A DNA stretch of 64,000 nt, from assembly GCA_024516035.1 (NCBI GenBank), contig CM044966.1, positions 16,411,377-16,475,376 on the forward strand. The letters run 5' to 3'. This document shows, in pieces, positions 6,727 through 63,300 of this stretch. A model generated the notes under the pieces. The model saw only the letters and a program-made list of their open reading frames with translations, did no database searches and was not told the DNA's origin. Position numbers and translations under genes: made by a program. Position 1 is the first letter of the stretch. Each line of letters starts with the position of its first letter. Source of the stretch: Bactericera cockerelli. Its lineage: Eukaryota; Arthropoda; Insecta; Hemiptera; Triozidae.

Positions 6727-6940
6727 ATCATACTGGTAGTCAAGTGGTTTAGACGCTAGTCTGGTAATCCAGGTAGCGTAGGGATCCGTTGGTTCGAATC
6801 CCACCCAGAGCATGAATTTTCCCTTATTAATTTAAGTTTGTGACCAAATAATAATAAGACTCTGAGGGTTAGGTGGTAGAAAATGCTTTGAGCATTAACC
6901 TCGCCTGGTGGTTACCTTCCACTAGAGAGCATTATTATTA
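6727..6940 (+). repeat. tRNA-derived SINE-B
   Basis: A-box-like GGTAGTCAAGTGGTTTAGAC near the start and canonical B-box GGTTCGAATCC at 6791-6801. The body has GTTAGGTGGTAGAAAATGC. Other copies lie near 11895, 12640, 53103, 54410 and 62207, mostly on the minus strand. Confidence 0.8.
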
Positions 6941-22458: not shown

Positions 22459-24483
22459 CTGGAAAAGAGACAGAAAAAAAGATAGGTCAAAATGATACCA
22501 ATAATAACATCGCCTTATTTATAATGCCCCGATTAGGATAAACGAGTCCCATTGTTTCAGCAGTAAGGTCAAGACCACATTATTGTGTGGTCAAAATCCT
22601 AAATGGGAGGATAACTTGTCATGTCACGGATGGATTTCAAACCCGCGACCTCTGGATTATCAGAATGACGCCTTGACAACTGAGCTACCGGGACAGAAAT
22701 AATAATAATATTGCTTTATTCATACTGCCCGATTAGGACTATTAAAGTCCCATTATTCCAGCAGTAAACCCAAGACGTATTTCTATGTGGTAAAAATCCC
22801 AAATGGGAGGATAACTTGTCATGTCCCGGTTGGGTTTTGAACCCGCAACCTCTGGAATCCCTGGATTCACACAGTGCCGCCTTTAAACACAATTGCAGAC
22901 CGTACCTTGACTTCTATCATCAGTGGCGGACTCTGTGGGAGCATCAGTGGTGGTGGGCGTGTCTTCATCACCAGTGGCGGAGCTCTTTCTACACTCGGGT
23001 TTGTCTCTGTAGCGACGCAGTCTGACGAGTTTCCTCTGGCCTTCATACAACTTCTGCCACATAGTCTCTGCGGTCGGAAGAAATACACAAACACAAGAAA
23101 ATCAACAACATTGCCACAAACACAGGAGACTTTAGGGCGGATTCAATAGGTGTTTCTTTTATACCTCCCCGTGGACCCGAGATAGATTTTGCGTATTGTT
23201 TTAAATGGGAAAATTAATGCTTGAATACAAATTTGAATCGAAAATTAACGCTTGAATCTTCATTTAGTCTACTAATTTTAACCCTAGAGCTCAGTGGTAA
23301 GTTTGATTCTCAGGGTTGACGAAAAAAAAAATGTACTAAAAAATTGGTTGCAGTTGTTTTAAGGTACGCTCGTGTTGACGCAGCCCTTAATGATAATAGT
23401 AATATAGCCCAGCAAATGCGAGTATACGGACAAGTATTTTCTAAAAATTACAAATATGTATTATCATTAACAATAAATTTGTAAACTAAAAATGGGAAAT
23501 ATTGTGTCACTTCTCGCCCATCAGAGGGGAGGCATACTACGGGACGGACAGGCTACAACACAGACCACAAGCGTTTACAGTAGCTGCTGTTTCATGGCTA
23601 CGAAATAAATAAGGCAATGAAATAAATAAGGGTTGGGTCGAAGAGATTGTCAAAGGCAATAGCCCCGCCTTTTAGTTAGGACATATATTATGTATATATT
23701 TTTTTTTTTCTTTCTTTATTTTTCTCTTATATTGTATTTTAATTTGTAATTATTTGTGTTGTATATAATATGTCCAATTAATAAAGTGTAAATAAATAAA
23801 TAATAAATAAACACTCATCTTTAAAAAAAAAATCTCTTCACTCACCATTGCGCAGAGCCCGCTGCGCATCCTCCACGGAGCCAAAGATAAGAATCGCCTG
23901 CCTCCGGTGCGCATGCGCAAACCTCTTCTTCCTCCTCACGCGCATGTCCGTGCGCAGACTCATCATCTCCTCCGGGGAGAGCAGCTCTGTCTGGAGGGAG
24001 ACGGAGGCGGGGGGAGGGGAGAGGGAGAGGAAGTGAGCCTCGTCCATGTGTGGCTGAGAAGTAATTCAAGAGTTCAAATTAGCGCGCGATTAGCTCAGTG
24101 GTTAAGCACTCGCTTGCCATGCGGAAGGTCCTGGGTTCGATCCCCCGTGCCGACAAAAATTTGTATATATTTTTTTTTTTTCAAACGCATCATTTCTGAT
24201 GTTATTACATGAAAATTTACAAAGGGGAAAAATAATATAAATATATATCTATGTTAAAAAAAAATAATTATAACAATATTTTTAATTTGGTTACAATTGT
24301 TTGTAAGGGATACCTTCCGGTGCGCTCGTGTTGACCCAGCACCTAAATGGGAAGTATTGTGTCACTTCTCGCCCATCAGAGGGGAGGCATACTACAGGAT
24401 GGGCAGGCTACAACGCAGACCACAAGCGTCTACAGTAGCTCCTGTTTCATGGCTACGAAATAAAAAAGGCTGTGAAACACTCA

Positions 24484-32286: not shown

Positions 32287-35200
32287 CTGTGGAGAGAGGA
32301 AAAAAAAAAAAATGTTGATATCCCACAAAAAAATATCATGTACACACAGGAGCTAGACAGAATTCATGCCACCTATCCTGGCAGACTCAGGAAATGTATT
32401 GCAGCAGAGGGTGGTGTTTTTGATCATCTGTAGAAGTGAATTACCTACATCGTACATAAAAACTTCAGGCACGGACTCGTGTTATGACTCACGCGCACGG
32501 AAATGAACGCAATTCAGAGGTTATTCGTCTGCCATTTTAAGGGGAAAAATCGCAGAAAGTTCATTTTTTTTCATTGTATGCTGCTAATTTTCTTCTTTTA
32601 TTTAAAAGAAAAAATATAGGGGTCCAATTTAAATTTCTGGACTTTTGGTCTTTTGAAACTGAAAAAAGTTTATGACCAATTTAAGGACCTATGACTTCCT
32701 TAAAGAATAAAAACAAGTACATCAAATTAAAGAAGATAACTTTACCTATTTTTTAACATTTTTAGTTTTTTTTACAACGTTTACCGGGTGCCCGTAATGA
32801 CTTCCGCAACGTGGGCCTATTTTCTCCTAAAAACCGTGTTTTTTTCGGGACTCGAATCAAGGAATATTTTTTTTCTTTTTACTAATGTTACTAACTTGCT
32901 TTGCATGTTTTGAAAGTAAAATAAAAAAATATATATTCAATTTAAAATTCGGGAGAAACGGACATGTGTCCCCCTGTAAACGCCCTTAGGGGCGGTGAGC
33001 TTTCCAATAAAACTTCAGACTTCATATTGGGGACCAATTTTTTGTTTCAAGATCCTAACTCAAACCGTTCTCGAGAAAAAGATAGTGGCTGGGTGGTTTC
33101 GATCACCCTGTATACAAATAATTAAATAATAATATTGCCTTATTTATACTGCCCGATTAGGACTATTAAGTCCCATTATTGGAGCAGTAAGCCCAAGACG
33201 TACTATTATGTGGTAAGTAGTGTATAAAGGAAGGGTCTACCAGGATAAGCAAGATTTTGCTCTAGCGTCGCAATGAAAGGTCGTAGGTTCGATTGTGGGT
33301 AGTCAAAAGATGCGTATTGAGCTCCAATATCTTTTGATATAACGTTTAGCTTTCTACTTCCCCCCTAGCCCCCCTAGATCAAATTTAAGTGGTCCATTTT
33401 TTAATTTCTATATTTTGCGGTTCCTACGATATGGTTATTTTTTTTGTAGTTGTTAGGTATCGATGTCGTTTATATATTTTATCAATAAATACATTTTTTT
33501 TTGACAATATAATAGATGAAAAATTTCGAGTGAGCCCTGGATTCGTACGTACAGAGACATTGTGTGTTCAATAGCGAGGTGCATGTAGGTAATTTGTTAT
33601 CAGTTCGTTGCAATGTGTGTTGCCTCGCTCATATAGTTGAGTAATTAAAAACTCTTGAAATCGAGGCAAAGTCACGAAACCAATTTTAGATTTAAAAACT
33701 AATTTGGGTTAGACCAATTCCAGTTGGAGATTTAATGTTTCAATTTAAAAACTTATTATTTTAGATAACGGAAGCATTGTGTGTTCGTTGTTTTTATTAT
33801 TATTTTTTGTGCTATAATTAATTTTAAAAGTACAAAGAAGAAATTTGTTTGTTCTAACACAGTACCGTTAGGAGAGGTAGATAAAGAACATAATACCTGG
33901 TAATTTTATTGTTATTACAAAATATAATTTTTAGGGGACCAGTATTAACCTTACGAGCACGGGTAATGGGTATGTAGCACATGATTGCGCATTGCATAAC
34001 AATTAAGATACCGGGCGTGCATAATTCGTACGAACAGAGACATTGTGTGTTCAATTCTAACCAAGGTGCATGTAGGCAATTTGTTATCGTTGCAATGCAG
34101 TGGCTCATATAGTAATTAAAAACTATTGAAAAGTCACGAAACCAATTTTAGATTTAAAAACTAATTAGCAGGCTAGACCAATTTCAGTTGAAGATTTAAT
34201 GTTTCAATTTAAGAAACTAATTATTTCAGTTTGAGTAATTAAAAACTATTGAATATTGAGGCAAAGTCACGAAACCAATTTTAGATTTAAAAACTAATTA
34301 GCAGGCTAGGCCAATTTCAGTTGGAGATTTAATGTTTCAATTTAAAAAGTTTGAGTAATTAAAAACTATTGAATATTGAGACAAAGTCACGAAACCAATT
34401 TTAGATTTAGAAAACTAATTATTTGAAGCAGGCTGCTAGACCGTTAAACATATTTTTTTTTTTAACAAGCAAAACTTGGTATAGGCTCGACGTGTATGGT
34501 CAAATATACAAGGTGTGTTGTCATAAAATATTACAAACATTTATTTTATTTCATTTTTTTTCTTACGTTAATTAAAACAATGGATAGGATACTAAATAGT
34601 ATTAATGAAAAAATCCAATACATACATGTGTTAGATGTAGGAGCCGGTTTGATGGTTTCACATAGTGAATTCAAAGCAGACAAAAAGTTCACAGCGTATT
34701 CATTCAACATTGTGGAATTTTTGCAATTGAATATATTGGAAGATGTAATTTCAGAACATTCATCGTAGGTTAAATTTAATTTTCTTGCTTTTGAATCCCA
34801 GCCATGTACATCATAACTATCCAGGAAAGATTGGTTTTGGTAAATCAAACACATTCTAATCAAGTACATTGCATATTCGCGAGCACCGAGCAATAATTGG
34901 GTAGCATTATCACTGTTCTCATGTTGAATCATGTTTGCGTTATGAAGGAGTATGCGCTTAGAATATTGGTATTTATAGATGAACCTCTCAGTATTATAAC
35001 CGCTACGTGAGATTGAGAATATTTGAGAACAAGCAAATCAGTTCCATTTCTTCTCTTGTGGTGTTAGTATCGTGTTTAATACGTGCATTAAAAAAAAAAA
35101 AAAAATATATAATAATAATGGTTTGTAAAATTGAGGGTTGTCAGTGTCAAAAACAAGAAATACCTATTCACCTAATGTACTGGCTTACACATCATGGCAT

Positions 35201-38200
35201 TGATATTCGTCCTCTCTTCCAAAAGCCTTATATTAGTAAGAAAAAGAAACCAGTCGCTGTTTCAAATGAAGGCAATATCGTCACTGAAGCGACCTACAAC
35301 TTTGTACCGGTAGAACATAATGGAGGAAATGTTTTGGAAGAATTTTTGTTTGAAATGCCAAACTTGGAACAGGAAACAAGCAATGCTCAACCAAACAATA
35401 GCAGTAACGTCAAAAGAAGTATTCCCTACAAAGTTCCACCCACAAGAAGAAGGATATAAATAGTTTTCAAATCGGAAACAAACAGTTAGTTATGAAGAAT
35501 CATTCGGTAAACTATTTTGGTGAGAGTGAACTTCACCACGCCTTAAGACGAGCATTGAAAAGACATCACAAAGAAGAACAACCTGAACAGAAAAATAAAA
35601 ATGAAATTGAAAGTCAAACTGAAAAAGAAGTCAAAAAATTCATGAAAGAATTCCCTCGCCAGTCGCATGTTCAAAAGTTACTGTCCTACTTTGTAGAAAG
35701 AAGAACGTTTGATAATTTATCAAATCACATCAGCAAAAATAATTTTGTGCCAACACGTGTGGCTAATAGCACTTATTTGGAGCAAAAATCTTTTACTGAA
35801 TACAAAGCAAACAATGAAAAAAATGTGAACGATGTGAAATTATCAATAGACGAATTGAAACACAATAGAAAACAGGATAATGAGATTTATAATTCTAAAT
35901 TTATGTTGAAAAAAGCGTTTGATGACTACATTGTTGAGGCTGGAGAAAAAGAACAAAAAATCACCGAGGACTTGAACAAAGTGAAAGAAGATCTTTCCAA
36001 CAGGATACATGAATTGGACAATAAGTTCACACCTCTTTTAGAAATAAAAAATACAGTAGATCAACACTATAAACAACATGTGCATGCAACCACAGCTTTA
36101 AGAAAAGATATCGCTGCTTTGGACAAAAAAGCTCTCTATGGAACAACATTTTACAATTATAAAAAAAATCACGAGTCTGATTTCAAGGAGATTGTTACTG
36201 AAAAAGAGAAAAAATTGAAAACCGAAGTAACAAATATGTTAACTTCATTGCTGTCAACTCATGAGACTGATTTCAAAAGAAAAGTTGAGGAAGAAAAAAT
36301 AAAAATTCGAAGTGATCTGTCAAGAATGTTTACTCAAAATTTAAATAATTTTCTTCTTGAAGAGTCCAACAAAAAGAAATTCTTACAACAATTGCGTTCT
36401 AATTTACTCGTCAGAATAAATACTGACAAGATACTGTCAGCATTTCTATCGTGTTGGAGTGAAGGTGAAATTACGGATGACGTTTTAGAAAAAGTTGTAA
36501 CTCAACTTAGCAAAGAAATAATGGAGAAATTGGATGTGGAAATAATCACTATAAAAGAACAAATTAATATCTCTAATGAAACAATTGAAAACTATATCAA
36601 GTTGAATGTAGTCGATGAGTTGAAAACTGATATAAGTTTAAAAATTAGGAATCTGATATTTGAACCTCTCTTGTATGAAAAATTGGAGCCTCTTGTAAAA
36701 TCTAAATCATCAAAGAAAACCACCATCGGAGAAGTTGAAGAACGAGCAACCCGACTTCCCGTTCCAATAGAATAATGTCAAAGCGTGATTTGGTTTTGGA
36801 GCTACATCGTCCTGCTAGAAAATTATTTCCCCACCGGAGAACTCTACTTCGCAATGTTCATGATCTTTTCCAAGCTGATCTAGTGGAAATGATTCCATAT
36901 GCCAATGAAAATGATGGTTATAAATACATACTTACCTGCATCAACTGCTTCTCCAAGTTTTCTTACTGTGCGCCGTTGAAAAACAAATTTCAGTTTTTTA
37001 AATTGAAAAATTAAATCTTCAACTGAAATTGGTCTAGCCTGCTAATTAGTTTTTAAATCTAAAATTGGTTTCGTGACTTTTCAAGAGTTTTTAATTACTA
37101 TATGAGCCACTGCATTGCAACGATAACAAATTGCCTACATGCACCTTGGTTAGAATTGAACACACAATGTCTCTGTTCGTACGAATTATGCACGCCCGGT
37201 ATCTTAGTTGTTATGCAATGCGCAATCATGTGCTACATACCCATTACCCGTGCTCGTAAGGTTAATACTGGTCCCCTGAAAATTATACATTATCATTATG
37301 GTGATGGAAGCCTTCGAAGGGTACTTTGCAATAGATGCAATTTAAAATTTAAAAAAGAAAAATTTGTTCCTGTTGTAGCACATAATTTTTCAGGCTACGA
37401 CAGTCATTTGATCATTAAAGGTTTGAATTATGATGATAAAAAAATAGAAATAATTCCAAATTCAACAGAAAAATATGTTTCCTTTTCAAAAAAGGTTACC
37501 GACAACCTGAGTGTTCGTTTTATAGATTCATTCAGGTTTTTGTCAAGCAGCCTTGATAAATTGAGCAAAACATTGCCAAAAGAAAAATTTTATCATACTA
37601 GGAAACATATTCAGTCCGATATTGATTTTGAATTACTGACTAGAAAAGGAATTTTTTGTTACGAATACCTTGATAGTTATAGTAAATTGTTCGATACTAA
37701 TCTGCCACCTCTTGATGAATTTTATTCCTCTTTAACAAATAGTTCAGTTACTCAGGAAGATTATGTTCACGCTCAAAAAGTGTGGACACATTTCAAGTGT
37801 CAAAACTTGAAAGAATATTCGGAAATTTATCTGAAAACTGACGTTCTATTGTTGGCAGATATTTTCGAATCCTTCCGAAACCTCTCCCTAAGTATATACA
37901 GCTTAGATCCTGTATGGTACTACTCTTTGCCGGGTCTTACCCTGGATGCTATGCTTAAGAAAACAAAAGTTGAAATAGAACTTTTGTTAGAATATGACAT
38001 GTACCTCTTTTTTGAGCAAGCAGTTAGGGGAGGTATTTGCCAATGTATTCAAAAGTACGCAGAGGCAAATAATAAACACATGGGAAGCGATTTTATTTCA
38101 TCTGAAAAATCCTCCTATCTTACTTATCTAGATGCTAATAATCTTTACGGTTACAGCATGGTTCAGAGAGTTCCTTTGAAAGATTTCAAGTGGTTGAGCG

Positions 38201-41200
38201 AAGAAGAAATCAACAGTATTTCTGTTTTAGATCTGACTCCACAAGATGATGTTGGATATTTTTTCGAGGTAGACGTGGAATATCCCAAGGAATTACACGA
38301 TTTACATTCGAATTTACCCTTCCTCTGTGAGAGAAAGAAATCTCCATTGTCTAACGCTCAAAAACTTATGACCACATTGGAAAACAAACATAAATATATT
38401 GTACATTGTCTAACGCTAAAACAAGCTCTTGAACATGGACTCAGACTTGTAAAAATTCATAGAGGAATAAAATTCATCCAAAGCAATTATCTAGCTCCGT
38501 ACATTAATCTTAATACTGAGCACAGGAAAAATGCAACCAATGATTTTGCAAAGGCTTTCTTTAAACAAGTCAATAACAGTTTGTATGGTAAGCTCATTGA
38601 AGGTGTGCGTAAAAGGGTTAATGTACAGTTAGAAACAAATTGGAAATTAGCTAGAAAACGTATTTCTAGTCCATTTTTCGAAGACTTCAAAATATTCGAA
38701 GAAAATCTCGTGCTCTTTACTATGAAGAAAACTAAAATTCAATTCAACAAAGCCATTTTTGCAGGCGTTTGTGTTCTCGACCTCAGTAAAACTTTGATGT
38801 ATCAATTTCACTATGATATTGTGCAACCAAAGTTTGGTCCTGAAAATGTTAGGTTACTCTATATGGACACAGATTCATTTTTTTATCAAATTTTTACCAC
38901 TGACTTATACCGAGACTTTTCGAACCTTTTGGAACACTTGGATACAAGTGCATACCCGAAGAATCACGAATTATTCTCTCTTCAAAATAAAAAGGTACTT
39001 GGAAAGTTCAAAGATGAGTTGGATGGTAAAATTTTGAAAAAATTTGTGGGCATTGCGAGTAAACTTTATTCATATCAAGAGCATGAGGGTAAAATAGTAA
39101 AGAAGGCTAAGGGTGTTAAGAAACATGTTACAGAACGACAGATCAAGTTTGAAGATTTTGAAAGATGTATGCGTGAAAATATTGAACTTTACAAATCTTT
39201 TCACAACATCGTCTCTAAAAATCATTGTTTGACGACTGTGAAACAAAACAAACTTGTTCTGAACAACTTTGATGACAAACGAGTTCTCATGACCGATAAA
39301 ATCAACACCCTGCCATTCGGTCACTACAAGTTAAAAAATGAGTCTTCAGAAATGGATTTGGAATAGGTTTTCGATTTTTTGATTGTGTTTATAAAAAAAA
39401 GTATAAATTCAACTAGCATGTAGTCCTTATGGTCAGTACTTGTTTATCTGTCTCTTGAAACAAGTGTTAACTGTTATCTTAAAATGGAAAATACTTTTGT
39501 AGCAGATATTCAATTTTTTCGCGACAATGAAAAACAAATAATTTTAAAAAGTTTCTCATTCTCGAAACTTTTTGACGATAACTTTGTGCAACATTTTGTA
39601 TTCAAACCACCCTATGATTTTCAAAAATTAAATTTACTCCGTCGACGAGAAGCTGCTATCGTTACATTAAATTATCATCACTTGGATTGGGATGATGGCT
39701 TTGTTGAGTACGATCAAGCAGTGCAAATCATTCGATCGTGTCTCTCTAAAGCAAGCGAAATAATTGTAAAAGGATTAGAAAAGGAAAAGTTTTTAAATTC
39801 TATTTTACCTATTAAAACATGTTACAATATTGAAAATTTAAACTGTCCTAACTTTAAGTCTTTAAAATTGAAATTGTGTCCACAAAATTCTATTTCTCCG
39901 GTTTCAAGTTTAAATGTAATTGTTATGAAACAATGGTTGTGTGAGCTAATGAAAAGTAGTTTAATCTTAACCAACGAAGCGATTGGCATCTTTAATGAAA
40001 CCAATGATTTTTTCTCATTGAAACCCAGAGACCTATATTTTTTACCTGTAAATTTTCTTCTTTATGCTTTTGATATTGATTTTCTAAATAGTATATCTTA
40101 TCTTTTGCCTCCACATATTGTACAGAACCCATACTTTAAGAATTCTCTTAGTACTGACAGTGGATATGATACCGTAGAGTAAAAGATAAAAAAAAAAAAA
40201 TGATTTTTCACGAAAAGTTCACGTATTATAAACTTAGAGTTGGTATTTTGTACAGAACCCACTTACTTTGAAATAATATTTTAAAAGTTACTATTGTTAA
40301 ATATGTTTGCACTAATATGTATATTCCAAGATTTGATTTTCATATTTTTTTAATTATATTTTTATAGTACACAATGTTTTTTTTTTTTTTTAATTTATTT
40401 TTCACAATGCTAGCTAAGTGAAATTATGCTTACCCTAAGTTGTTCACATTGATAGTTTTAAGTAATTATTTCTTTACTCCAAGATAATTTATATCCACTA
40501 TTTCATTTTTTTTTTTTTTTTGTATAGTACAGTTTTAAAGTATCCTAAATTGATTTTTTTAAATAAGAACAATAAAGTATTTTGATTTTATTAAGTATTT
40601 CACTATGTATTTTATTACAATTTAAAATATATAAGAGAAAAATCATGCATCTTATTCTTACATCTACTTGTTTTCATTTTCTATTTCTCAATTAGGGAAG
40701 AAATAGGGACCCATTGGTTTTCTTCAGGTCCAAAACCTAAATATTTTACTAAAACCTTATCACCTTTACGTTGGAGTATCTTTTCTACAAGATAAACATC
40801 TGGATATGAGGTCTTGAGTAACTCTTGCTCGTAGAAACAACCATGGATTGGTTTCCCGTTTAAATCTTCTAAGTGAAATACCCTAGGAAAAGTATGACCT
40901 ACCTTAACCACTCGAAAAACTTCATAACTCCAGTTGGCCTCATAACCTTTCTGAAACAAATGTTTAACTTTGGAAATTCGTACAAGATCACCTAGTTTAA
41001 ATTTACCAGTTCTATCTAGGACTTGCTTGGGTTTGTTCAATCGAAGAGCTACAAGACTTTGATTTTTAGAGTTTACATCTTTGGGTGCCATACCAATAGA
41101 GCGATGTTTGCTGGCATTGTAGGTAGACACAAGATTTGGTAAAATATCCAACCATCTGTACGAACCAAGTAAATTAAATTCAATCCACATTTTACTTTTC

Positions 41201-44200
41201 AAAGTTCGATTAAACCGCTCTACAATAGCAGCTTTCATGGGAGAAAATGTACTGTAATGGGTAATGTTATATTTTTGCATTAGTTTGCGGAATGGTTGGC
41301 CAAAAAACTCTTTGCCAGCATCCGTTTGCAAGTGGGTTGGGATCATGGTAGGTTTCAACTTTTCTAGAACATATTTTTCCATCTGCTTGGCAACTTCAGC
41401 ACTCGTTTTGTTTTTCAACGGCGCACAGTAAGAAAACTTGGAGAAGCAGTTGATGCAGGTAAGTATGTATTTATAACCATCATTTTCATTGGCATATGGA
41501 ATCATTTCCACTAGATCAGCTTGGAAAAGATCATGAACATTGCGAAGTAGAGTTCTCCGGTGGGGAAATAATTTTCTAGCAGGACGATGTAGCTCCAAAA
41601 CCAAATCACGCTTTGACATTATTCTATTGGAACGGGAAGTCGGGTTGCTCGTTCTTCAACTTCTCCGATGGTGGTTTTCTTTGATGATTTAGATTTTACA
41701 AGAGGCTCCAATTTTTCATACAAGAGAGGTTCAAATATCAGATTCCTAATTTTTAAACTTATATCAGTTTTCAACTCATCGACTACATTCAACTTGATAT
41801 AGTTTTCAATTGTTTCATTAGAGATATTAATTTGTTCTTTTATAGTGATTATTTCCACATCCAATTTCTCCATTATTTCTTTGCTAAGTTGAGTTACAAC
41901 TTTTTCTAAAACGTCATCCGTAATTTCACCTTCACTCCAACACGATAGAAATGCTGACAGTATCTTGTCAGTATTTATTCTGACGAGTAAATTAGAACGC
42001 AATTGTTGTAAGAATTTCTTTTTGTTGGACTCTTCAAGAAGAAAATTATTTAAATTTTGAGTAAACATTCTTGACAGATCACTTCGAATTTTTATTTTTT
42101 CTTCCTCAACTTTTCTTTTGAAATCAGTCTCATGAGTTGACAGCAATGAAGTTAACATATTTGTTAACTTCATTGCTGTCAACTCATGAGACTGATTTCA
42201 AAAGAAAAGTTGAGGAAGAAAAAATAAAAATTCGAAGTGATCTGTCAAGAATGTTTACTCAAAATTTAAATAATTTTCTTCTTGAAGAGTCCAACAAAAA
42301 GAAATTCTTACAACAATTGCGTTCTAATTTACTCGTCAGAATAAATACTGACAAGATACTGTCAGCATTTCTATCGTGTTGGAGTGAAGGTGAAATTACG
42401 GATGACGTTTTAGAAAAAGTTGTAACTCAACTTAGCAAAGAAATAATGGAGAAATTGGATGTGGAAATAATCACTATAAAAGAACAAATTAATATCTCTA
42501 ATGAAACAATTGAAAACTATATCAAGTTGAATGTAGTCGATGAGTTGAAAACTGATATAAGTTTAAAAATTAGGAATCTGATATTTGAACCTCTCTTGTA
42601 TGAAAAATTGGAGCCTCTTGTAAAATCTAAATCATCAAAGAAAACCACCATCGGAGAAGTTGAAGAACGAGCAACCCGACTTCCCGTTCCAATAGAATAA
42701 TGTCAAAGCGTGATTTGGTTTTGGAGCTACATCGTCCTGCTAGAAAATTATTTCCCCACCGGAGAACTCTACTTCGCAATGTTCATGATCTTTTCCAAGC
42801 TGATCTAGTGGAAATGATTCCATATGCCAATGAAAATGATGGTTATAAATACATACTTACCTGCATCAACTGCTTCTCCAAGTTTTCTTACTGTGCGCCG
42901 TTGAAAAACAAAACGAGTGCTGAAGTTGCCAAGCAGATGGAAAAATATGTTCTAGAAAAGTTGAAACCTACCATGATCCCAACCCACTTGCAAACGGATG
43001 CTGGCAAAGAGTTTTTTGGCCAACCATTCCGCAAACTAATGCAAAAATATAACATTACCCATTACAGTACATTTTCTCCCATGAAAGCTGCTATTGTAGA
43101 GCGGTTTAATCGAACTTTGAAAAGTAAAATGTGGATTGAATTTAATTTACTTGGTTCGTACAGATGGTTGGATATTTTACCAAATCTTGTGTCTACCTAC
43201 AATGCCAGCAAACATCGCTCTATTGGTATGGCACCCAAAGATGTAAACTCTAAAAATCAAAGTCTTGTAGCTCTTCGATTGAACAAACCCAAGCAAGTCC
43301 TAGATAGAACTGGTAAATTTAAACTAGGTGATCTTGTACGAATTTCCAAAGTTAAACATTTGTTTCAGAAAGGTTATGAGGCCAACTGGAGTTATGAAGT
43401 TTTTCGAGTGGTTAAGGTAGGTCATACTTTTCCTAGGGTATTTCACTTAGAAGATTTAAACGGGAAACCAATCCATGGTTGTTTCTACGAGCAAGAGTTA
43501 CTCAAGACCTCATATCCAGATGTTTATCTTGTAGAAAAGATACTCCAACGTAAAGGTGATAAGGTTTTAGTAAAATATTTAGGTTTTGGACCTGAAGAAA
43601 ACCAATGGGTCCCTATTTCTTCCCTAATTGAGAAATAGAAAATGAAAACAAGTAGATGTAAGAATAAGATGCATGATTTTTCTCTTATATATTTTAAATT
43701 GTAATAAAATACATAGTGAAATACTTAATAAAATCAAAATACTTTATTGTTCTTATTTAAAAAAATCAATTTAGGATACTTTAAAACTGTACTATACAAA
43801 AAAAAAAAAAAAATGAAATAGTGGATATAAATTATCTTGGAGTAAAGAAATAATTACTTAAAACTATCAATGTGAACAACTTAGGGTAAGCATAATTTCA
43901 CTTAGCTAGCATTGTGAAAAATAAATTAAAAAAAAAAAAAACATTGTGTACTATAAAAATATAATTAAAAAAATATGAAAATCAAATCTTGGAATATACA
44001 TATTAGTGCAAACATATTTAACAATAGTAACTTTTAAAATATTATTTCAAAGTAAGTGGGTTCTGTACAAAATACCAACTCTAAGTTTATAATACGTGAA
44101 CTTTTCGTGAAAAATCATTTTTTTTTTTTTATCTTTTACTCTACGGTATCATATCCACTGTCAGTACTAAGAGAATTCTTAAAGTATGGGTTCTGTACAA

Positions 44201-47200
44201 TATGTGGAGGCAAAAGATAAGATATACTATTTAGAAAATCAATATCAAAAGCATAAAGAAGAAAATTTACAGGTAAAAAATATAGGTCTCTGGGTTTCAA
44301 TGAGAAAAAATCATTGGTTTCATTAAAGATGCCAATCGCTTCGTTGGTTAAGATTAAACTACTTTTCATTAGCTCACACAACCATTGTTTCATAACAATT
44401 ACATTTAAACTTGAAACCGGAGAAATAGAATTTTGTGGACACAATTTCAATTTTAAAGACTTAAAGTTAGGACAGTTTAAATTTTCAATATTGTAACATG
44501 TTTTAATAGGTAAAATAGAATTTAAAAACTTTTCCTTTTCTAATCCTTTTACAATTATTTCGCTTGCTTTAGAGAGACACGATCGAATGATTTGCACTGC
44601 TTGATCGTACTCAACAAAGCCATCATCCCAATCCAAGTGATGATAATTTAATGTAACGATAGCAGCTTCTCGTCGACGGAGTAAATTTAATTTTTGAAAA
44701 TCATAGGGTGGTTTGAATACAAAATGTTGCACAAAGTTATCGTCAAAAAGTTTCGAGAATGAGAAACTTTTTAAAATTATTTGTTTTTCATTGTCGCGAA
44801 AAAATTGAATATCTGCTACAAAAGTATTTTCCATTTTAAGATAACAGTTAACACTTGTTTCAAGAGACAGATAAACAAGTACTGACCATAAGGACTACAT
44901 GCTAGTTGAATTTATACTTTTTTTTATAAACACAATCAAAAAATCGAAAACCTATTCCAAATCCATTTCTGAAGACTCATTTTTTAACTTGTAGTGACCG
45001 AATGGCAGGGTGTTGATTTTATCGGTCATGAGAACTCGTTTGTCATCAAAGTTGTTCAGAACAAGTTTGTTTTGTTTCACAGTCGTCAAACAATGATTTT
45101 TAGAGACGATGTTGTGAAAAGATTTGTAAAGTTCAATATTTTCACGCATACATCTTTCAAAATCTTCAAACTTGATCTGTCGTTCTGTAACATGTTTCTT
45201 AACACCCTTAGCCTTCTTTACTATTTTACCCTCATGCTCTTGATATGAATAAAGTTTACTCGCAATGCCCACAAATTTTTTCAAAATTTTACCATCCAAC
45301 TCATCTTTGAACTTTCCAAGTACCTTTTTATTTTGAAGAGAGAATAATTCGTGATTCTTCGGGTATGCACTTGTATCCAAGTGTTCCAAAAGGTTCGAAA
45401 AGTCTCGGTATAAGTCAGTGGTAAAAATTTGATAAAAAAATGAATCTGTGTCCATATAGAGTAACCTAACATTTTCAGGACCAAACTTTGGTTGCACAAT
45501 ATCATAGTGAAATTGATACATCAAAGTTTTACTGAGGTCGAGAACACAAACGCCTGCAAAAATGGCTTTGTTGAATTGAATTTTAGTTTTCTTCATAGTA
45601 AAGAGCACGAGATTTTCTTCGAATATTTTGAAGTCTTCGAAAAATGGACTAGAAATACGTTTTCTAGCTAATTTCCAATTTGTTTCTAACTGTACATTAA
45701 CCCTTTTACGCACACCTTCAATGAGCTTACCATACAAACTGTTATTGACTTGTTTAAAGAAAGCCTTTGCAAAATCATTGGTTGCATTTTTCCTGTGCTC
45801 AGTATTAAGATTAATGTACGGAGCTAGATAATTGCTTTGGATGAATTTTATTCCTCTATGAATTTTTACAAGTCTGAGTCCATGTTCAAGAGCTTGTTTT
45901 AGCGTTAGACAATGTACAATATATTTATGTTTGTTTTCCAATGTGGTCATAAGTTTTTGAGCGTTAGACAATGGAGATTTCTTTCTCTCACAGAGGAAGG
46001 GTAAATTCGAATGTAAATCGTGTAATTCCTTGGGATATTCCACGTCTACCTCGAAAAAATATCCAACATCATCTTGTGGAGTCAGATCTAAAACAGAAAT
46101 ACTGTTGATTTCTTCTTCGCTCAACCACTTGAAATCTTTCAAAGGAACTCTCTGAACCATGCTGTAACCGTAAAGATTATTAGCATCTAGATAAGTAAGA
46201 TAGGAGGATTTTTCAGATGAAATAAAATCGCTTCCCATGTGTTTATTATTTGCCTCTGCGTACTTTTGAATACATTGGCAAATACCTCCCCTAACTGCTT
46301 GCTCAAAAAAGAGGTACATGTCATATTCTAACAAAAGTTCTATTTCAACTTTTGTTTTCTTAAGCATAGCATCCAGGGTAAGACCCGGCAAAGAGTAGTA
46401 CCATACAGGATCTAAGCTGTATATACTTAGGGAGAGGTTTCGGAAGGATTCGAAAATATCTGCCAACAATAGAACGTCAGTTTTCAGATAAATTTCCGAA
46501 TATTCTTTCAAGTTTTGACACTTGAAATGTGTCCACACTTTTTGAGCGTGAACATAATCTTCCTGAGTAACTGAACTATTTGTTAAAGAGGAATAAAATT
46601 CATCAAGAGGTGGCAGATTAGTATCGAACAATTTACTATAACTATCAAGGTATTCGTAACAAAAAATTCCTTTTCTAGTCAGTAATTCAAAATCAATATC
46701 GGACTGAATATGTTTCCTAGTATGATAAAATTTTTCTTTTGGCAATGTTTTGCTCAATTTATCAAGGCTGCTTGACAAAAACCTGAATGAATCTATAAAA
46801 CGAACACTCAGGTTGTCGGTAACCTTTTTTGAAAAGGAAACATATTTTTCTGTTGAATTTGGAATTATTTCTATTTTTTTATCATCATAATTCAAACCTT
46901 TAATGATCAAATGACTGTCGTAGCCTGAAAAATTATGTGCTACAACAGGAACAAATTTTTCTTTTTTAAATTTTAAATTGCATCTATTGCAAAGTACCCT
47001 TCGAAGGCTTCCATCACCATAATGATAATGTATAATTTTCAGGGGACCAGTATTAACCTTACGAGCACGGGTAATGGGTATGTAGCACATGATTGCGCAT
47101 TGCATAACAACTAAGATACCGGGCGTGCATAATTCGTACGAACAGAGACATTGTGTGTTCAATTCTAACCAAGGTGCATGTAGGCAATTTGTTATCGTTG

Positions 47201-50200
47201 CAATGCAGTGGCTCATATAGTAATTAAAAACTCTTGAAAAGTCACGAAACCAATTTTAGATTTAAAAACTAATTAGCAGGCTAGACCAATTTCAGTTGAA
47301 GATTTAATTTTTCAATTTAAAAAACTGAAATTTGTTTTTCAACGGCGCACAGTAAGAAAACTTGGAGAAGCAGTTGATGCAGGTAAGTATGTATTTATAA
47401 CCATCATTTTCATTGGCATATGGAATCATTTCCACTAGATCAGCTTGGAAAAGATCATGAACATTGCGAAGTAGAGTTCTCCGGTGGGGAAATAATTTTC
47501 TAGCAGGACGATGTAGCTCCAAAACCAAATCACGCTTTGACATTATTCTATTGGAACGGGAAGTCGGGTTGCTCGTTCTTCAACTTCTCCGATGGTGGTT
47601 TTCTTTGATGATTTAGATTTTACAAGAGGCTCCAATTTTTCATACAAGAGAGGTTCAAATATCAGATTCCTAATTTTTAAACTTATATCAGTTTTCAACT
47701 CATCGACTACATTCAACTTGATATAGTTTTCAATTGTTTCATTAGAGATATTAATTTGTTCTTTTATAGTGATTATTTCCACATCCAATTTCTCCATTAT
47801 TTCTTTGCTAAGTTGAGTTACAACTTTTTCTAAAACGTCATCCGTAATTTCACCTTCACTCCAACACGATAGAAATGCTGACAGTATCTTGTCAGTATTT
47901 ATTCTGACGAGTAAATTAGAACGCAATTGTTGTAAGAATTTCTTTTTGTTGGACTCTTCAAGAAGAAAATTATTTAAATTTTGAGTAAACATTCTTGACA
48001 GATCACTTCGAATTTTTATTTTTTCTTCCTCAACTTTTCTTTTGAAATCAGTCTCATGAGTTGACAGCAATGAAGTTAACATATTTGTTACTTCGGTTTT
48101 CAATTTTTTCTCTTTTTCAGTAACAATCTCCTTGAAATCAGACTCGTGATTTTTTTTATAATTGTAAAATGTTGTTCCATAGAGAGCTTTTTTGTCCAAA
48201 GCAGCGATATCTTTTCTTAAAGCTGTGGTTGCATGCACATGTTGTTTATAGTGTTGATCTACTGTATTTTTTATTTCTAAAAGAGGTGTGAACTTATTGT
48301 CCAATTCATGTATCCTGTTGGAAAGATCTTCTTTCACTTTGTTCAAGTCCTCGGTGATTTTTTGTTCTTTTTCTCCAGCCTCAACAATGTAGTCATCAAA
48401 CGCTTTTTTCAACATAAATTTAGAATTATAAATCTCATTATCCTGTTTTCTATTGTGTTTCAATTCGTCTATTGATAATTTCACATCGTTCACATTTTTT
48501 TCATTGTTTGCTTTGTATTCAGTAAAAGATTTTTGCTCCAAATAAGTGCTATTAGCCACACGTGTTGGCACAAAATTATTTTTGCTGATGTGATTTGATA
48601 AATTATCAAACGTTCTTCTTTCTACAAAGTAGGACAGTAACTTTTGAACATGCGACTGGCGAGGGAATTCTTTCATGAATTTTTTGACTTCTTTTTCAGT
48701 TTGACTTTCAATTTCATTTTTATTTTTCTGTTCAGGTTGTTCTTCTTTGTGATGTCTTTTCAATGCTCGTCTTAAGGCGTGGTGAAGTTCACTCTCACCA
48801 AAATAGTTTACCGAATGATTCTTCATAACTAACTGTTTGTTTCCGATTTGAAAACTATTTATATCCTTCTTCTTGTGGGTGGAACTTTGTAGGGAATACT
48901 TCTTTTGACGTTACTGCTATTGTTTGGTTGAGCATTGCTTGTTTCCTGTTCCAAGTTTGGCATTTCAAACAAAAATTCTTCCAAAACATTTCCTCCATTA
49001 TGTTCTACCGGTACAAAGTTGTAGGTCGCTTCAGTGACGATATTGCCTTCATTTGAAACAGCGACTGGTTTCTTTTTCTTACTAATATAAGGCTTTTGGA
49101 AGAGAGGACGAATATCAATGCCATGATGTGTAAGCCAGTACATTAGGTGAATAGGTATTTCTTGTTTTTGACACTGACAACCCTCAATTTTACAAACCAT
49201 TATTATTATATATTTTTTTTTTTTTTTTAATGCACGTATTAAACACGATACTAACACCACAAGAGAAGAAATGGAACTGATTTGCTTGTTCTCAAATATT
49301 CTCAATCTCACGTAGCGGTTATAATACTGAGAGGTTCATCTATAAATACCAATATTCTAAGCGCATACTCCTTCATAACGCAAACATGATTCAACATGAG
49401 AACAGTGATAATGCTACCCAATTATTGCTCGGTGCTCGCGAATATGCAATGTACTTGATTAGAATGTGTTTGATTTACCAAAACCAATCTTTCCTGGATA
49501 GTTATGATGTACATGGCTGGGATTCAAAAGCAAGAAAATTAAATTTAACCTACGATGAATGTTCTGAAATTACATCTTCCAATATATTCAATTGCAAAAA
49601 TTCCACAATGTTGAATGAATACGCTGTGAACTTTTTGTCTGCTTTGAATTCACTATGTGAAACCATCAAACCGGCTCCTACATCTAACACATGTATGTAT
49701 TGGATTTTTTCATTAATACTATTTAGTATCCTATCCATTGTTTTAATTAACGTAAGAAAAAAAATGAAATAAAATAAATGTTTGTAATATTTTATGACAA
49801 CACACCTTGTATATTTGACCATACACGTCGAGCCTATACCAAGTTTTGCTTGTTAAAAAAAAAAATATGTTTAACGGTCTAGCAGCCTGCTTCAAATAAT
49901 TAGTTTTCTAAATCTAAAATTGGTTTCGTGACTTTGTCTCAATATTCAATAGTTTTTAATTACTCAAACTTTTTAAATTGAAACATTAAATCTCCAACTG
50001 AAATTGGCCTAGCCTGCTAATTAGTTTTTAAATCTAAAATTGGTTTCGTGACTTTGCCTCAATATTCAATAGTTTTTAATTACTCAAACTGAAATAATTA
50101 GTTTCTTAAATTGAAACATTAAATCTTCAACTGAAATTGGTCTAGCCTGCTAATTAGTTTTTAAATCTAAAATTGGTTTCGTGACTTTTCAATAGTTTTT

Positions 50201-51359
50201 AATTACTATATGAGCCACTGCATTGCAACGATAACAAATTGCCTACATGCACCTTGGTTAGAATTGAACACACAATGTCTCTGTTCGTACGAATTATGCA
50301 CGCCCGGTATCTTAATTGTTATGCAATGCGCAATCATGTGCTACATACCCATTACCCGTGCTCGTAAGGTTAATACTGGTCCCCTAAAAATTATATTTTG
50401 TAATAACAATAAAATTACCAGGTATTATGTTCTTTATCTACCTCTCCTAACGGTACTCTGTTAGAACAAACAAATTTCTTCTTTGTACTTTTAAAATTAA
50501 TTATAGCACAAAAAATAATAATAAAAACAACGAACACACAATGCTTCCGTTATCTAAAATAATAAGTTTTTAAATTGAAACATTAAATCTCCAACTGGAA
50601 TTGGTCTAACCCAAATTAGTTTTTAAATCTAAAATTGGTTTCGTGACTTTGCCTCGATTTCAAGAGTTTTTAATTACTCAACTATATGAGCGAGGCAACA
50701 CACATTGCAACGAACTGATAACAAATTACCTACATGCACCTCGCTATTGAACACACAATGTCTCTGTACGTACGAATCCAGGGCTCACTCGAAATTTTTC
50801 ATCTATTATATTGTCAAAAAAAAATGTATTTATTGATAAAATATATAAACGACATCGATACCTAACAACTACAAAAAAAATAACCATATCGTAGGAACCG
50901 CAAAATATAGAAATTAAAAAATGGACCACTTAAATTTGATCTAGGGGGGGCTAGGGGGGAAGTAGAAAGCTAAACGTTATATCAAAAGATATTGGAGCTC
51001 AATACGCATCTTTTGACTACCCACAATCGAACCTACGACCTTTCATTGCGACGCTAGAGCAAAATCTTGCTTATCCTGGTAGACCCTTCCTTTATACACT
51101 ACTGTGGTAAAAATCCCAACTGGGAGGATAACTTGTCATGTCCCGGCTGGGGTTCGAACCCGCGACCTCTGGAATCTCTGGATTCACACAGTGCCGCCTT
51201 TACCACTGAGCTACCGGGACAGACAAATAATAAGAATAAAGAGAAAGCATAGGCTATTTTATATATTTTGCATGTAATTCTTCATATGTTTTTGTATAGA
51301 TGTGATTAGATGTAAGTTAATTGATTTTGTAATTGCCTACATGTTAGGCGTAAAATTGA

Positions 51360-54300: not shown

Positions 54301-57300
54301 TAAGTCTGGGATGTGCCAGCCAACCAATGGATAAAGTCCTGGGGAATAATGGATTTTTTTTAAAATTATACAGTGTGGGCAATTTTTTGTTGTTGTTGAA
54401 ATAATAATAATACTCTTTAGTGGAAGGTAACCACCAGGCGAGGTTAATGCTCAAAGCATTTTCTACCACCTAACCCTCGGAGTCTTACTATTATGTGGTC
54501 ACAAACTCAAATTAATGAGGAAAAATTCGTGCACTGGGTGGGATTCGAACCAACGGATCCCTACGCTACCTGGATTACCAGACTAGCGCGTTAACCACTT
54601 GACTACCATAATATATAATATATAATACACATATAATATCCAGTGTGTAATGCTGGGTCCACACAGTTGCAACATGCAACATGAATTCACTCTGTGTGGA
54701 CGGCTTCTGAACACGAACATGAATGTTCAAAAATTATCCATGAGGATGTCGGTTTTCTAACGAACAACTTTGATCTTTGTTTGCTACTATGTTGCACGTG
54801 TGTGGACGGCACCTGAACATAGAAACAGAATGGATCACTTACGAACGCGAACTGCAACACGTTTCTGCAACAGTGTTCTAATTACCACACACATGTTGCA
54901 GCAACGTGTTGCATGTTGCACCTGTGTGGACCCAGCATAAAATAGAATTAAAATGGGACCATTTAAAATATCTCCTAAAATAGAATTAAAATGGGACCAT
55001 TTAATATTTTATATAAAACTAGGATTCTTTAAAAAAAATTCACTCACCGACTCGAGTTTCGCCTAGGCTTCGAACCCACGACCTCTGGAATCTCTGGATT
55101 CACAGAGTGTCGCCTTTACCACTGAGCTACCGGAACAGACATAGGGCTTCAATAATCCTAATCGGGCAGCATAAATAAGGCAATAAAGTTTAAAATGATA
55201 AGTAGCACCTCAGTGTTACCAGCGTCTGTTACCTGCAAGAGAGGCATGTGGCTGCTTGCCAGTGTTAACATCCATGAAGCTGCCAGTGCCGATTGTAAGC
55301 TTGATGTCACCTGGCTGTAGGCAGTCCAGACCAAACATAGAGGCAGACTGATCTGCCATCTGGGGGAAATTAGAGTGAACGATTAGCTTGAGTATTATTA
55401 TTATTATTATTATGGCATACAACGCAAGATAATTTATTTTTCATCCGTACAATACAAATTACTAACATCCGAGAATAAACCATATTCTTTGGATGTTAGC
55501 TAAATCGCTTTCAATTATACACCAAACTTTTTGAGAATGTGGGCTGTACCCAGGATGGCACATGATTGCACTTCGGATGTTATTTTTATTGTTATTTTTA
55601 TTTTTTTTAAAAAAAAGGAAGGGCGGGGGAAAATCTTTTAAAGACACCCAGGTCTTAGCCTGGGGTGTGGGATTTCCACCCACTAAAAACCCACCTTTCC
55701 TGATAGCATACTGCACTTGGAACCGAAATATTTTCATTACTTCTACAACACTTCTATTATTATACAACACTTTATTAGAATTGATGTAAATGGACATTAT
55801 GAACAGTACAAGTAATTATTTTAACAAAGAAAAAAAAATGAAAACAATATATACAATAAAAATGAAAAAGAATAGAAAATATATAAAAACATATGTCCTA
55901 ACTAAAGGGCGGGGTTATTGCCTAGGGAATTCTCTTCCACCCAACACTGAGTGCATGGTTAGCTCAGTGGTAAAATACTTGCGTACCATGAGGAAGGTCC
56001 CGGGTTCAATATCTAGATTTGTCTACAATAGCTGTTGTTTCACGGGTGTCTGTTGCCTTATTTATGCTGCCCGATTAGGATTATTGAAGTCCTAATAATA
56101 CGTCTTGGGCTTACTGCTGGAATAATGGGACTTAATAGTCCTAATCAGGCAGTATAAATAAGGCGATATTATTATTATTATTATTGTAAATAAAAGCAAT
56201 GTGCTGGGTTAACACGAGCGCAAAAACAACAACAATTTGTTTAAAGGTATTGTTCTGTTAATAATTGTAACCGTATACGGGTCATTTTCATTTATCTTGG
56301 GCAGTTGGATTTTTTCAAGTCATGAACGTTACCTTTTTCCTAAACAATTTTTTAGGCTCAGAAGACTAAGACAAATACCTTTGAGCAAAAGCTTTCATTC
56401 AGAAAGCAAAAGCTTACAGATCTTGGTGTCACATTTAGCTCAAATTTGAACTGGGATGCACACATAGATAAAACAATAGGTGCGGCCAACCGGAGACTAG
56501 GGATGGTCATAAGATGCTGCACCCCCATTAGTGATATAGACACTATTACACTCTTATACAAAAGTATAGTGCGTTCGAAATTAGAATATTGTTCTGCTCT
56601 ATGGACTCCACAAACAAAAACCCAAATTATGAAACTTGAAAAAGTACAAGCTAATTTCGTACGATACCTTTTTCAAAAAGTCAATGGTTTTTACCCTAAA
56701 TACCCCTCAAACATAAGCTACAAATTACTGATTGAACATCTAGTCATTGACTCCATTGAATCCAGATTTAGGGACAATCAAATTAAATTCCTCAAAAATT
56801 TACTAACAAACAAAATTAATAGCATATATCTCACATCCAAAATTGATATTAAGGTCCCTAATCCAAGACTCCGTACTGACCCAACCACACTATTCGCTGT
56901 TCATCCAAATTTATTTAAATCTCCAATAATAGCTGCAATGAATGTCTATAATAACATCGAAAACAAACCAGACCTGTTCTATCCATACGAGTAATAAATA
57001 ACACAAAAATAAACAACACTTGAACATCAAACATAAGTAACTCTATATCTCTGTAATCTGACTCATCAGATTAAGACATTGACAGCATGATAATATTGTT
57101 TACTATATGTAGATTGTTTACTATAGATATGCACATTCCACTCATACAATTCATCATCATTCAGCAATCATAATAGAATCAACTAGATAGTACCCAGATT
57201 AATATTAGACCTTGTTTATTTCTTCTATGTTATGTTTTATTATATTCACCTTAATTTTAAGCTATCAGTATGTATTGTATACCTATATATTATATAATTG

Positions 57301-60300: not shown

Positions 60301-63300
60301 TTATTGTAATTTATAAAAAAAAATTGTTTCCCATGTGATCAAATAGATTTTAGTCATATATCCCTATTATTTTCACATTTATTAAAGGAGAAAGGTTGCG
60401 GACTTGATATGCCCAAGATAAATGAAAATGACCCATACCAGTCTATTATTATAACTAAAAATTGCCTTTTTTCTGCCCTTATTGAATTTACTCAAAGGGC
60501 ATTAAGTAAAAATAATATGTCTATCTATCTATCTATCTATCTAATAAAGCATTTCATCATAATAAAATATACCAGTGTATTATTATTAAAAATTGCCTTT
60601 TTTCTGCCCTTATTGAATTAAATGTCCTTACTCAAAGGGCATTAAGTAAAAAACCGACGGACCGTCAGACGGACACAAAACCAAAGTTGCTCAGGAGGTT
60701 ATGAAACATCCAGAAATATGAAAAAAATTGAAATAGAAGCAAAAACATATTATTATTTTTACAAAAACGAACACAATACTTCCGATTTCTAATATCAGAA
60801 ATTTCTCGGAAGTAATATACCAGTGTATTATTATTATTATTAAAAATTGCCTTTTTTCTGCCCTTACTCACGTTAAGTTATAAGTATCAAACCACGTCTT
60901 ACCGAGCAGAGGATCGGAATCGCACGCCCCAGCACACATTCGTCAACTTCCCCTAGAGCCTCGCCCCCCTCACAAGCCAAGGTCACAGGATCCCCGCCTC
61001 CCTCACAAGCCAAGGTCACAGGATCCCCGCCTCCCTCACAAGCCAAGGTCACAGGATCCCCGCCTCCCTCACAAGCCAAGGTCACAGGATCCCCGCCTCT
61101 CTCACAAGCCAAGGTCACAGGATCCCCGCCTCCCTCACAAGCCAAGGTCACAAGATCCCCGCCTCTCTCACAAGCTGAGGGCACAAGCCCGGGCAGAATC
61201 CTCGCCGGAATTCCGAACATCCCGAGCGCCCAGCCAGCCCACGCTCGTGTGAACGGGTCGTAGATTCCGGACGCGGAGGCGTGCGAGAGATCCGTGACGT
61301 GCGTAGAGCCGCCTGTGAGCTTGTAGATGAGCCAGGTGTCTAGAGTTCCGTACAGGACGTTGTGATTGGCAAGGTGATGACGGACGGCGGGAATTTCACG
61401 CAGAACCCAAGCTAGCCGCGGGAGCACCTGAGAGGGAGTGAATTGTTTTGAATATTATAGTCAAATCTTAGAAGCCAAATAAAAATAGCTTAGAATGCGT
61501 CCTCTGTACAAAAAAAAAATATGAAAAATAAAACAAATGATTTATTATTATTACACACATAAAAAAAACCTGTACATGAGAGAACTCAATAGACAGGAAA
61601 TTAGTCTCATATTTCCAGGTTTATCTTCTAAAAAGGTTATTTTCCCTTACAGAGAGGTAAATTTGACCTGGAAGTTTGTCTCTTGTATCCAGGTTTCTCT
61701 TACAAGTATGTACTTCTCTAATATCTAGATTCTACAGTAATAATCTTCAGAGGAACTGTCTTGCTAGGGAAAGGTTAAACAGATATGGTAACACCTTTCT
61801 CAGATCATAGGACAATAATAATAATAATAAAAAAAAACCCTCAATTCGCTGGGAATCGTACCAGCTACCCACATTAATCTCACCCAGCCTGGGTAGGGCC
61901 GGAATTGCCAGCCTCATATGTTCGGAGGTAACAGAATTTTCTGTGCGAAAAGTCTCTTCCAACCGGGAATCAAACTCAGGATCTCTGGACTACAGGCAAT
62001 AGTCACAACCGTTAAGCCACGGAGGCTGGCATAAGACAATAACACAGATCATTGGCGTCCTTGACAGGGTTGGTGTTAGGAAGGGCCTTCAGCTATAAAT
62101 AACTGTGGAAGTAGTAGTGCCAGAACCAACCTTCAACCTGAGGCAGAGGTTGAACAATGCCGCTGCAAAGAAGGTTTTGCAAAAAGGCAAAGTGAAATAA
62201 GAATAATAATACTCTTTTGTGGAAGGTTACCACCAGGCAAGATTAATGCTCAAAGCATTTTCTACCACCTAACCCTAAGAGTCTTCTTATTATGTGGTCA
62301 CAAACTCAAATTAATGAAGAAAAATTCATGCACTGGGTGGGATTTGAACCAACGGATCCCTACGCTACCTGGATTACCAGAGCTGCGCCTTAACCACTTG
62401 ACTACCAGTGTACAGTTCTACTCATAGGAAGGTAAACACCTGGCAATGTTAATTTGACAGGTTGTAAATGAAAATGTATTCCCACCATGTGTAGTAATAC
62501 CTACTTGGGCATTCATAAGCTTGAACACACTGCCTGCTTGGAATCGCTTTACTCCTGTAATAGAATACAAGATCTTGCATATTTTGTTCAAGCCCTGAAA
62601 TGTGGTTACAAAAAAACAGATACAAAATTAATCAAAGTGTAGTAATTTTTTTGTGATAGGAGCATTTAAAAATGAAAAGTTTGAGAACATGTTCTTTTTT
62701 TTCATTTTCTTCCCAAATGTTCTTTTTGTGACATACCCATATTGTTTTTGTTTGTTTTATGTTTTTAAACCTACGCATCTTCTTCTTCTTCAACTTTTAC
62801 TCTGTCTTATCCCTCTTGAGCAGGGTCGACGTTGTTCAACCTCATAGTTGAGGTTGGTTGGTTTTGGCACATTTTTTATGGCTGGATGCCCTTCCTAACA
62901 CCAACAATTCTATTTGATTTAACGTCCTGGATTAGGACGGGGGTTTTACCCTCCATTTGCTGGGAACTGTACCAGCTACCCACATTAACCTCACCCAGCC
63001 TGGGTAGGGCCGGAAATGCCAGCCTTACATGTACAGAGGGAACAGAATTTTCCTACCTACCCATATCCTCCAAGAATTATTGTACTCCTCGACAAGCTCA
63101 TTTGCCCGCAAATCATTCCACAGAATGAAATTATGGAACTCTTCGCCACTTGTTTTGTTCCATGTAAGAAACGTGTTCCTTTGAGCTGATATGCCAAGTC
63201 CAAAAATCTCATTGATTGAAATCTGAGCTGTAGATATGCACTTCTTCATCAAATCTACAATCTGCGTCCATAACTGATCTGGTTTTATCTCTTCATGTTC

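Follow-up and report, generated by a model that had tools for sequence, protein, structure and literature searches.

A Polinton of Bactericera cockerelli that forms a single 17.9-kb palindrome: structure and possible snap-back origin

Introduction

How does a Polinton come to consist of two inverted copies of one half, and was it already palindromic when it entered the chromosome? The question is raised by a locus of Bactericera cockerelli, located in a window of 64,000 nucleotides (GCA_024516035.1, contig CM044966.1, positions 16,411,377 to 16,475,376, forward strand). All coordinates below refer to this window. The best explanation found is a defective Polinton whose free genome would have become palindromic through snap-back replication before insertion, to which we assign a probability of about 0.55.

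Extent and symmetry of the palindrome

The element occupies positions 33216-51103 (17,888 bp, two arms of 8,944 bp), as delimited by self-BLAST and arm alignment. In the self-BLAST of the window it matched its own reverse complement with 99.955% identity over 17,890 columns (4 mismatches, 4 gaps), and this length excludes a chance origin. The left arm (33216..42157, + strand) begins AGTAGTGTATAAAGG. It is followed by a 4-bp spacer, TATT, on the axis of symmetry (42158..42161) and by the right arm (42162..51103, - strand), which is the reverse complement of the left. The two inverted halves of ~8.94 kb reported in the initial annotation were thus recovered. The alternative of two neighbouring elements in inverted orientation was rejected, the centre being without a terminal repeat.

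Alignment of the two 8,944-bp halves showed differences at four places, two of them being homopolymer lengths. These were a C6/C7 run near 33369 / 50950 (153 bp from the end), a single substitution at 33860 / 50458 (644 bp from the end), a T15/T14 run near 40377 / 43941 (7,161 bp from the end) and, at the centre, the unpaired spacer bases 42158 / 42161. Inside the element there are ten mirrored pairs of open reading frames (ORFs) of at least 80 aa. Nine of the ten translate identically, including those of 90, 128, 150, 427, 754, 232 and 312 aa, so that the seven gene pairs said to encode identical proteins were confirmed by comparing translations. The spacer accounts for two residue differences in the tenth, a 187-aa ORF pair at the centre.

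Outside the central region, a single substitution and two homopolymer lengths are all that distinguishes the arms, which counts against a snap-back origin. Because the sole substitution outside the spacer lies in the outer 650 bp, the place expected for ordinary terminal repeats, the arms are barely evidenced as independently read. This bears on an artefact of assembly or library preparation, in which a Polinton with ordinary terminal repeats would have been joined internally to a folded read, and the assembly would then have passed into the right flank by way of the identical terminal repeat. Two of the three off-centre differences, the substitution among them, are this close to the end, as if the terminal repeats alone had been read independently. 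Foldback reads are a known artefact, making up about 0.55-0.6% of genomic nanopore reads in the figures of one study (PMC12870357), and whole-genome amplification is described as yielding palindromic reads (PMC6218980). The nanopore study gives virtually no foldback reads for its PacBio HiFi data, with three PacBio samples in all (PMC12870357).

Ends, target duplication and flanking DNA

The element starts with AGTAGT and finishes with ACTACT, and it is bordered by the target site duplication GTGGTA on the left (33210..33215) and on the right (51104..51109). The symmetry ceases exactly at this duplication, and in the self-BLAST the sequence differs immediately outside. Comparison of the element with its flanks gave just two short matches, of 33 and 28 columns (E ≤ 1e-3). 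The Polinton-like ends, the 6-bp duplication and the stop of the palindrome at the border of unlike flanks, all noted earlier, were therefore substantiated. Both ends of the palindrome are identical and no second end type is present, indicating that it was built from one genome end only. Subterminal repeats of ~70-230 bp, 80-93% alike, lie in the outer 1.2 kb of each arm (33541-33764, 34024-34229 and 34234-34421, with mirror copies).

These borders are difficult to reconcile with the artefact. A folded read mirrors its flank and no mirrored flank was seen; the join would require another switch, located within the terminal repeat; and the symmetry would have to end exactly at a perfect target duplication. 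We consider such an artefact unlikely. A mirrored host flank, as from breakage-fusion or a single folded read, was searched for separately and rejected: the 20 longest flank-to-flank matches were scattered repeats of 150-312 columns, none of them adjoining the element. The same flanks and duplication would be left by a later conversion, in which an ordinary Polinton inserted and its left half was then copied over the right one via the inverted terminal repeats, by gene conversion or break-induced copying. Inverted repeats do recombine readily. The evidence that bears on this alternative lies at the centre and is given below.

The ends agree with those of vertebrate Mavericks, for which a 6-bp duplication is described and 5'-(AGT)2 ... 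(ACT)2-3' is one of two end motifs named (PMC8097293). The total length is also alike, 17,888 bp being within one standard deviation of the 16,862 ± 1,678 bp given there for intact vertebrate elements (PMC8097293). In contrast, the terminal inverted repeats, which are present, are 8,944 bp each and take up half of the element, compared with 46-1,447 bp in the same account (PMC8097293). Terminal repeats of 232-858 bp are listed for three dinoflagellate elements (PMC12721341). In a cryptophyte survey of Polinton-like viruses, repeats are put at hundreds to thousands of bp, with a filter of 100 bp-8 kb for repeats and 6-80 kb for inserts (PMC12220804). The repeat-length limit of this filter would discard the present element.

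Several features were recorded in the surrounding window. The left flank contains a 3,239-aa open frame (12770-22486, - strand) that had no Pfam match at E ≤ 0.01. Within it are a 72-bp (24-aa) repeat in 8.3 copies (18033-18633) and a 156-168-bp repeat (20678-21715). On the other side, two frames on the - strand (60876-61454 and 63028-63354) match parts of the FGGY carbohydrate-kinase domain and are probably exons; the former runs into a 33-bp (11-aa) tandem repeat of 6.5 copies (60962-61175). A dispersed repeat of ~210 bp, probably a tRNA-derived SINE, occurs at 6732-6939, 54400-54608 and 62199-62407, one copy being called tRNA-Thr by ARAGORN (6730-6812). A 212-aa open frame (56356-56991, + strand) had no Pfam match at E ≤ 0.01; it presumably resembles the end of a LINE reverse transcriptase.

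Gene content

The 312-aa integrase is encoded at 40681..41619 (- strand), with its mirror copy at 42700..43638 (+ strand). It matched Pfam rve above the cut-off (E 2.2e-11) and had a weak chromodomain match in Pfam below it. Relatives numbered 2,273 at E ≤ 0.001, the closest of the best 120 being 82% identical; no match was found in phage records. The protein has a DDE triad of D35, D100 and E134. In an alignment with 16 relatives (17 sequences), D35 and E134 were invariant and D100 was present in all but P0012, and a profile from this alignment matched retroviral integrases in the PDB. Pfam, the relatives and the DDE alignment all upheld the assignment as a Polinton-type integrase.

A 754-aa ORF at 37102..39366 (+ strand; mirror copy at 44952..47216, - strand) was identified through relatives and a profile as the C-terminal part of a family-B DNA polymerase. 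Searched from 37288 on, it had 4,848 relatives at E ≤ 0.001, scoring being limited to the 7,985 candidates with the most shared words and listing to the best 120. The two best among the matches listed, Ladona fulva (47%) and Cacopsylla melanoneura (51%), are both arthropods. When 15 relatives were compared, the nine with lengths of 1,162-1,204 aa aligned only from residue 468-528 onward, and in a profile of 59 relatives the alignment started at position 437 of 1,131. Homology to family-B polymerases spans about 690 aa, and the N-terminal ~470-530 residues of full-length relatives are missing. Going by motif labels, we take exonuclease- and polymerase-type motifs to be retained in the ORF. It had no Pfam polymerase match, though some of the listed relatives carry PF03175. 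The earlier claim of a Polinton polymerase thus stands as regards homology to the Polinton type, but relatives and profile alike show the N-terminal part to be absent. In structural models from a preprint, the N-terminal part of Polinton polymerases contains a terminal (priming) protein together with an OTU-like protease (PMC11071308). With the site of the modelled priming protein missing, the polymerase is very probably unable to prime by itself, and replication would need a helper not seen here.

A full-length coil gene (427 aa) lies at 35492..36775 (+ strand), with a mirror copy at 47543..48826 (- strand). Its product is 41% identical over its length to a psyllid protein, one of two relatives found. 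Another ORF (41619..42182, - strand) spans the spacer and continues into C-terminal coil sequence, as a truncated second copy. The ORFs of 128 aa (34546..34932, - strand, overlapped on the other strand by the 90-aa ORF), 150 aa (35007..35459, + strand) and 232 aa (39484..40182, + strand) had, like the 90-aa ORF, no match above the cut-off in Pfam and PHROGs, nor did those of 150 and 232 aa in NCBIfam. A single-sequence structure model of the 232-aa product was of very low confidence (mean pLDDT 37.8) and was discarded. The 128-, 150-, 232- and 427-aa ORFs could be divergent versions of Polinton genes. When viral contigs were searched for relatives, the polymerase fragment, the integrase alignment and the polymerase alignment gave 2, 127 and 106 pattern-matching stretches, respectively, none of which was confirmed. 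Among these contigs neither a palindromic nor a non-palindromic relative was thus found, which counts against the snap-back reading.

Searches of the seven main ORFs in Pfam and PHROGs, and of five of them in NCBIfam, yielded no recognisable capsid, packaging ATPase or protease gene. One published definition relies on PolB, the rve integrase and terminal inverted repeats, with capsid proteins, packaging ATPase and protease as usual, not defining, genes (PMC12220804). Their absence is weaker evidence than the truncated polymerase, given that Pfam failed to detect the polymerase as well. The ends, the duplication, the integrase and the homology of the polymerase identify the element as a Polinton. 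It is probably a defective one in need of help, a judgement that comes mainly from the polymerase.

Mosaic structure of the arms

The arms themselves are mosaics. A block of 753 bp with the end of the coil gene and the start of the integrase gene (36235..36987, + strand) starts in the middle of the coil gene and is repeated in inverted orientation at 41407-42159, adjoining the centre, without a mismatch (100% identity). A subterminal block A (33923..34218, + strand) recurs as the inverted copy A' at 36992..37287 (- strand), 98.3% identical over 296 bp and continuous in frame with the polymerase fragment. The sequence switches within about 15 bp at either edge of A'. The possibility that A' is a genuine part of the polymerase was rejected, as the profile of 59 relatives leaves most of the block unscored; it was treated as an unrelated in-frame fusion. 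The block (37102-37287) provides an ATG and ~62 in-frame codons, which would allow translation of a polymerase with a replaced N-terminus.

Since A and A' differ by 5 mismatches in 296 bp, A' would predate the palindrome or derive from another copy. The order in the parent was probably terminal repeat, 150-aa ORF, coil and integrase, and then, encoded on the opposite strand, the 232-aa ORF and polymerase. This order is suggested by the integrase following the coil gene in both copies, and by its linkage, in opposite orientation, to the 232-aa ORF and polymerase.

Hairpin at the centre

The apex of the palindrome is the hairpin GAAGTTAACA-TATT-TGTTAACTTC (42148..42171). Nearly the same hairpin exists as a native quasi-palindrome in the full-length coil gene (36224..36246, - strand), with a 5-bp stem, one bulged base, 4 more bp and a 4-nt loop. 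On the + strand, this site reads GAAG-TAACA-AATA-TGTTAACTTC. The two hairpins are the same except for one base missing from one native stem; absent from GAAG-TAAC, it is present at the apex (GAAGTTAAC). The apex matches the other strand of the native site through the loop TATT up to TGTTA and then diverges, and the 4-nt loop of the coil-gene hairpin survives as the spacer of the palindrome. It looks as if the turn occurred once TGTTA had paired with TAACA, everything beyond being copied from earlier sequence of the same strand. Copying of one stem from the other would explain why the apex stem is perfect and the native stem is not. From the orientation of the loop, the left arm would be the parent and the right arm the copy.

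Hairpins as good as that of the apex were found at 4 of the 8,142 arm positions scanned, compared with 2-8 in 10 dinucleotide shuffles. They were defined by at least 5 perfect pairs, a loop of 3-8, one bulge and at least 9 pairs in total. A random turning point would fall on such a hairpin with a probability near 0.0005, a guide value only, as this definition was chosen after the apex had been seen. Stems of at least 5 bp were more common (98 of 8,142 positions). Single-strand folding at the native site gave a z of -2.61 and the same loop, with 4 of 200 shuffles folding as well.

The central hairpin argues against later conversion, which predicts neither a hairpin centre, nor a loop kept as the spacer, nor a perfected stem; we regard it as distinctly unlikely. 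It does not sharply separate snap-back from end joining, by which two broken half-genomes would have been joined in inverted orientation through the 5-nt microhomology while extrachromosomal, and then integrated. Judged by its sequence, the 5-nt stem would serve such a joining of two inverted molecules equally well, which counts against snap-back, and an identical centre would result. Non-homologous end joining is moreover the mechanism proposed for adeno-associated virus snapback genomes in one account (PMC8235507). However, end joining requires two molecules broken at nearly the same base, and the 4 bp by which the stem exceeds the 5-nt match are superfluous to it. We hold it to be very unlikely. 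The short stem also has a bearing on the artefact discussed above, since amplification chimeras form at short inverted stems too.

Origin of the palindrome

We return to snap-back replication. In the standard model of protein-primed replication, a strand grows inward from a terminal repeat and displaces the other strand. The role of end repeats in protein priming is discussed for Mavericks (PMC8097293). For the present element, a strand would have grown inward from one terminal repeat as far as the short quasi-palindrome in the coil gene, and folded back on itself there through the 5-bp stem and the 4-nt loop. It would then have copied its own sequence as far as the end from which it had started. 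When replicated once more, this hairpin would open into a duplex of 17.9 kb carrying an identical terminal repeat at either end. As both its ends are proper, such a duplex could be inserted by an integrase, encoded by itself or by a helper, and acquire the usual 6-bp duplication. The strand switch would thus belong to replication and precede insertion, and helper functions may have come from an intact relative.

The initial annotation had proposed that the palindrome inserted as such. This is still the best explanation: ends, integrase and 6-bp duplication are as in Polintons, and a simple folded read would have mirrored the host flank too. What had been missed were the hairpin at the centre, the mosaic arms and the truncation of the polymerase. 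The first of these, lying in the element's own sequence, supplies a mechanism for the palindrome. The size of 17.9 kb would fit selection for a packageable length; the comparison is with vertebrate elements only, and the agreement could be chance.

Related systems and implications

In the 6-bp duplication, AGT/ACT ends, DDE integrase, family-B polymerase and total length, the element is like other Polintons and Mavericks. It is unlike them in its half-element terminal repeats, in lacking the polymerase N-terminus and in having no recognised capsid, ATPase or protease gene. A palindromic Polinton was not found in a literature search, which supports absence from print only weakly.

Snapback genomes of adeno-associated virus are described as defective interfering, self-complementary molecules of one genome moiety and its mirror image, a symmetric form included (PMC8235507). 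They resemble the present element as mirror-image DNA from one genome moiety (PMC8235507). Unlike it, they are packaged viral molecules and not an integrated element with a target duplication. Adeno-associated virus replicates by a rolling hairpin, unlike the Polinton mode. Two features by which snapback or copy-back genomes are recognised were found here, namely a palindrome of one end and a centre on a hairpin of the parent sequence.

Vierula and Bertrand reportedly described in 1992 a deletion derivative of the kalilo linear plasmid that forms hairpin as well as duplex DNA. Kalilo is like a Polinton genome in being a linear plasmid with a terminal protein and a hairpin-forming deletion derivative; it differs as a fungal mitochondrial plasmid, and we know of no integration of it with a 6-bp duplication. 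Palindromic defective adenovirus genomes with duplicated left ends and derivatives of the yeast killer plasmid pGKL1 are further protein-primed linear DNAs with one-end palindromes, both extrachromosomal.

A wider reading, which we put forward tentatively and consider somewhat unlikely, is that Polintons of living animals make snap-back self-complementary genomes during free protein-primed replication, and that these reach a packageable length and re-enter the germline via the normal integrase. To our knowledge, free replicating Polinton DNA has so far been more deduced from sequence than seen. Further cases could be sought as spacer-poor full palindromes between 6-bp duplications, a form excluded by at least one published filter, as described for the cryptophyte survey (PMC12220804). 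If the snap-back origin is true, the element would be a chromosomal record of the faulty replication of a free linear Polinton genome, and it would link Polintons with the defective genomes known from adeno-associated viruses and linear plasmids. On the wider reading, snap-back Polinton genomes could also be satellites that interfere with their parent, e.g. through dsRNA from mirrored genes.
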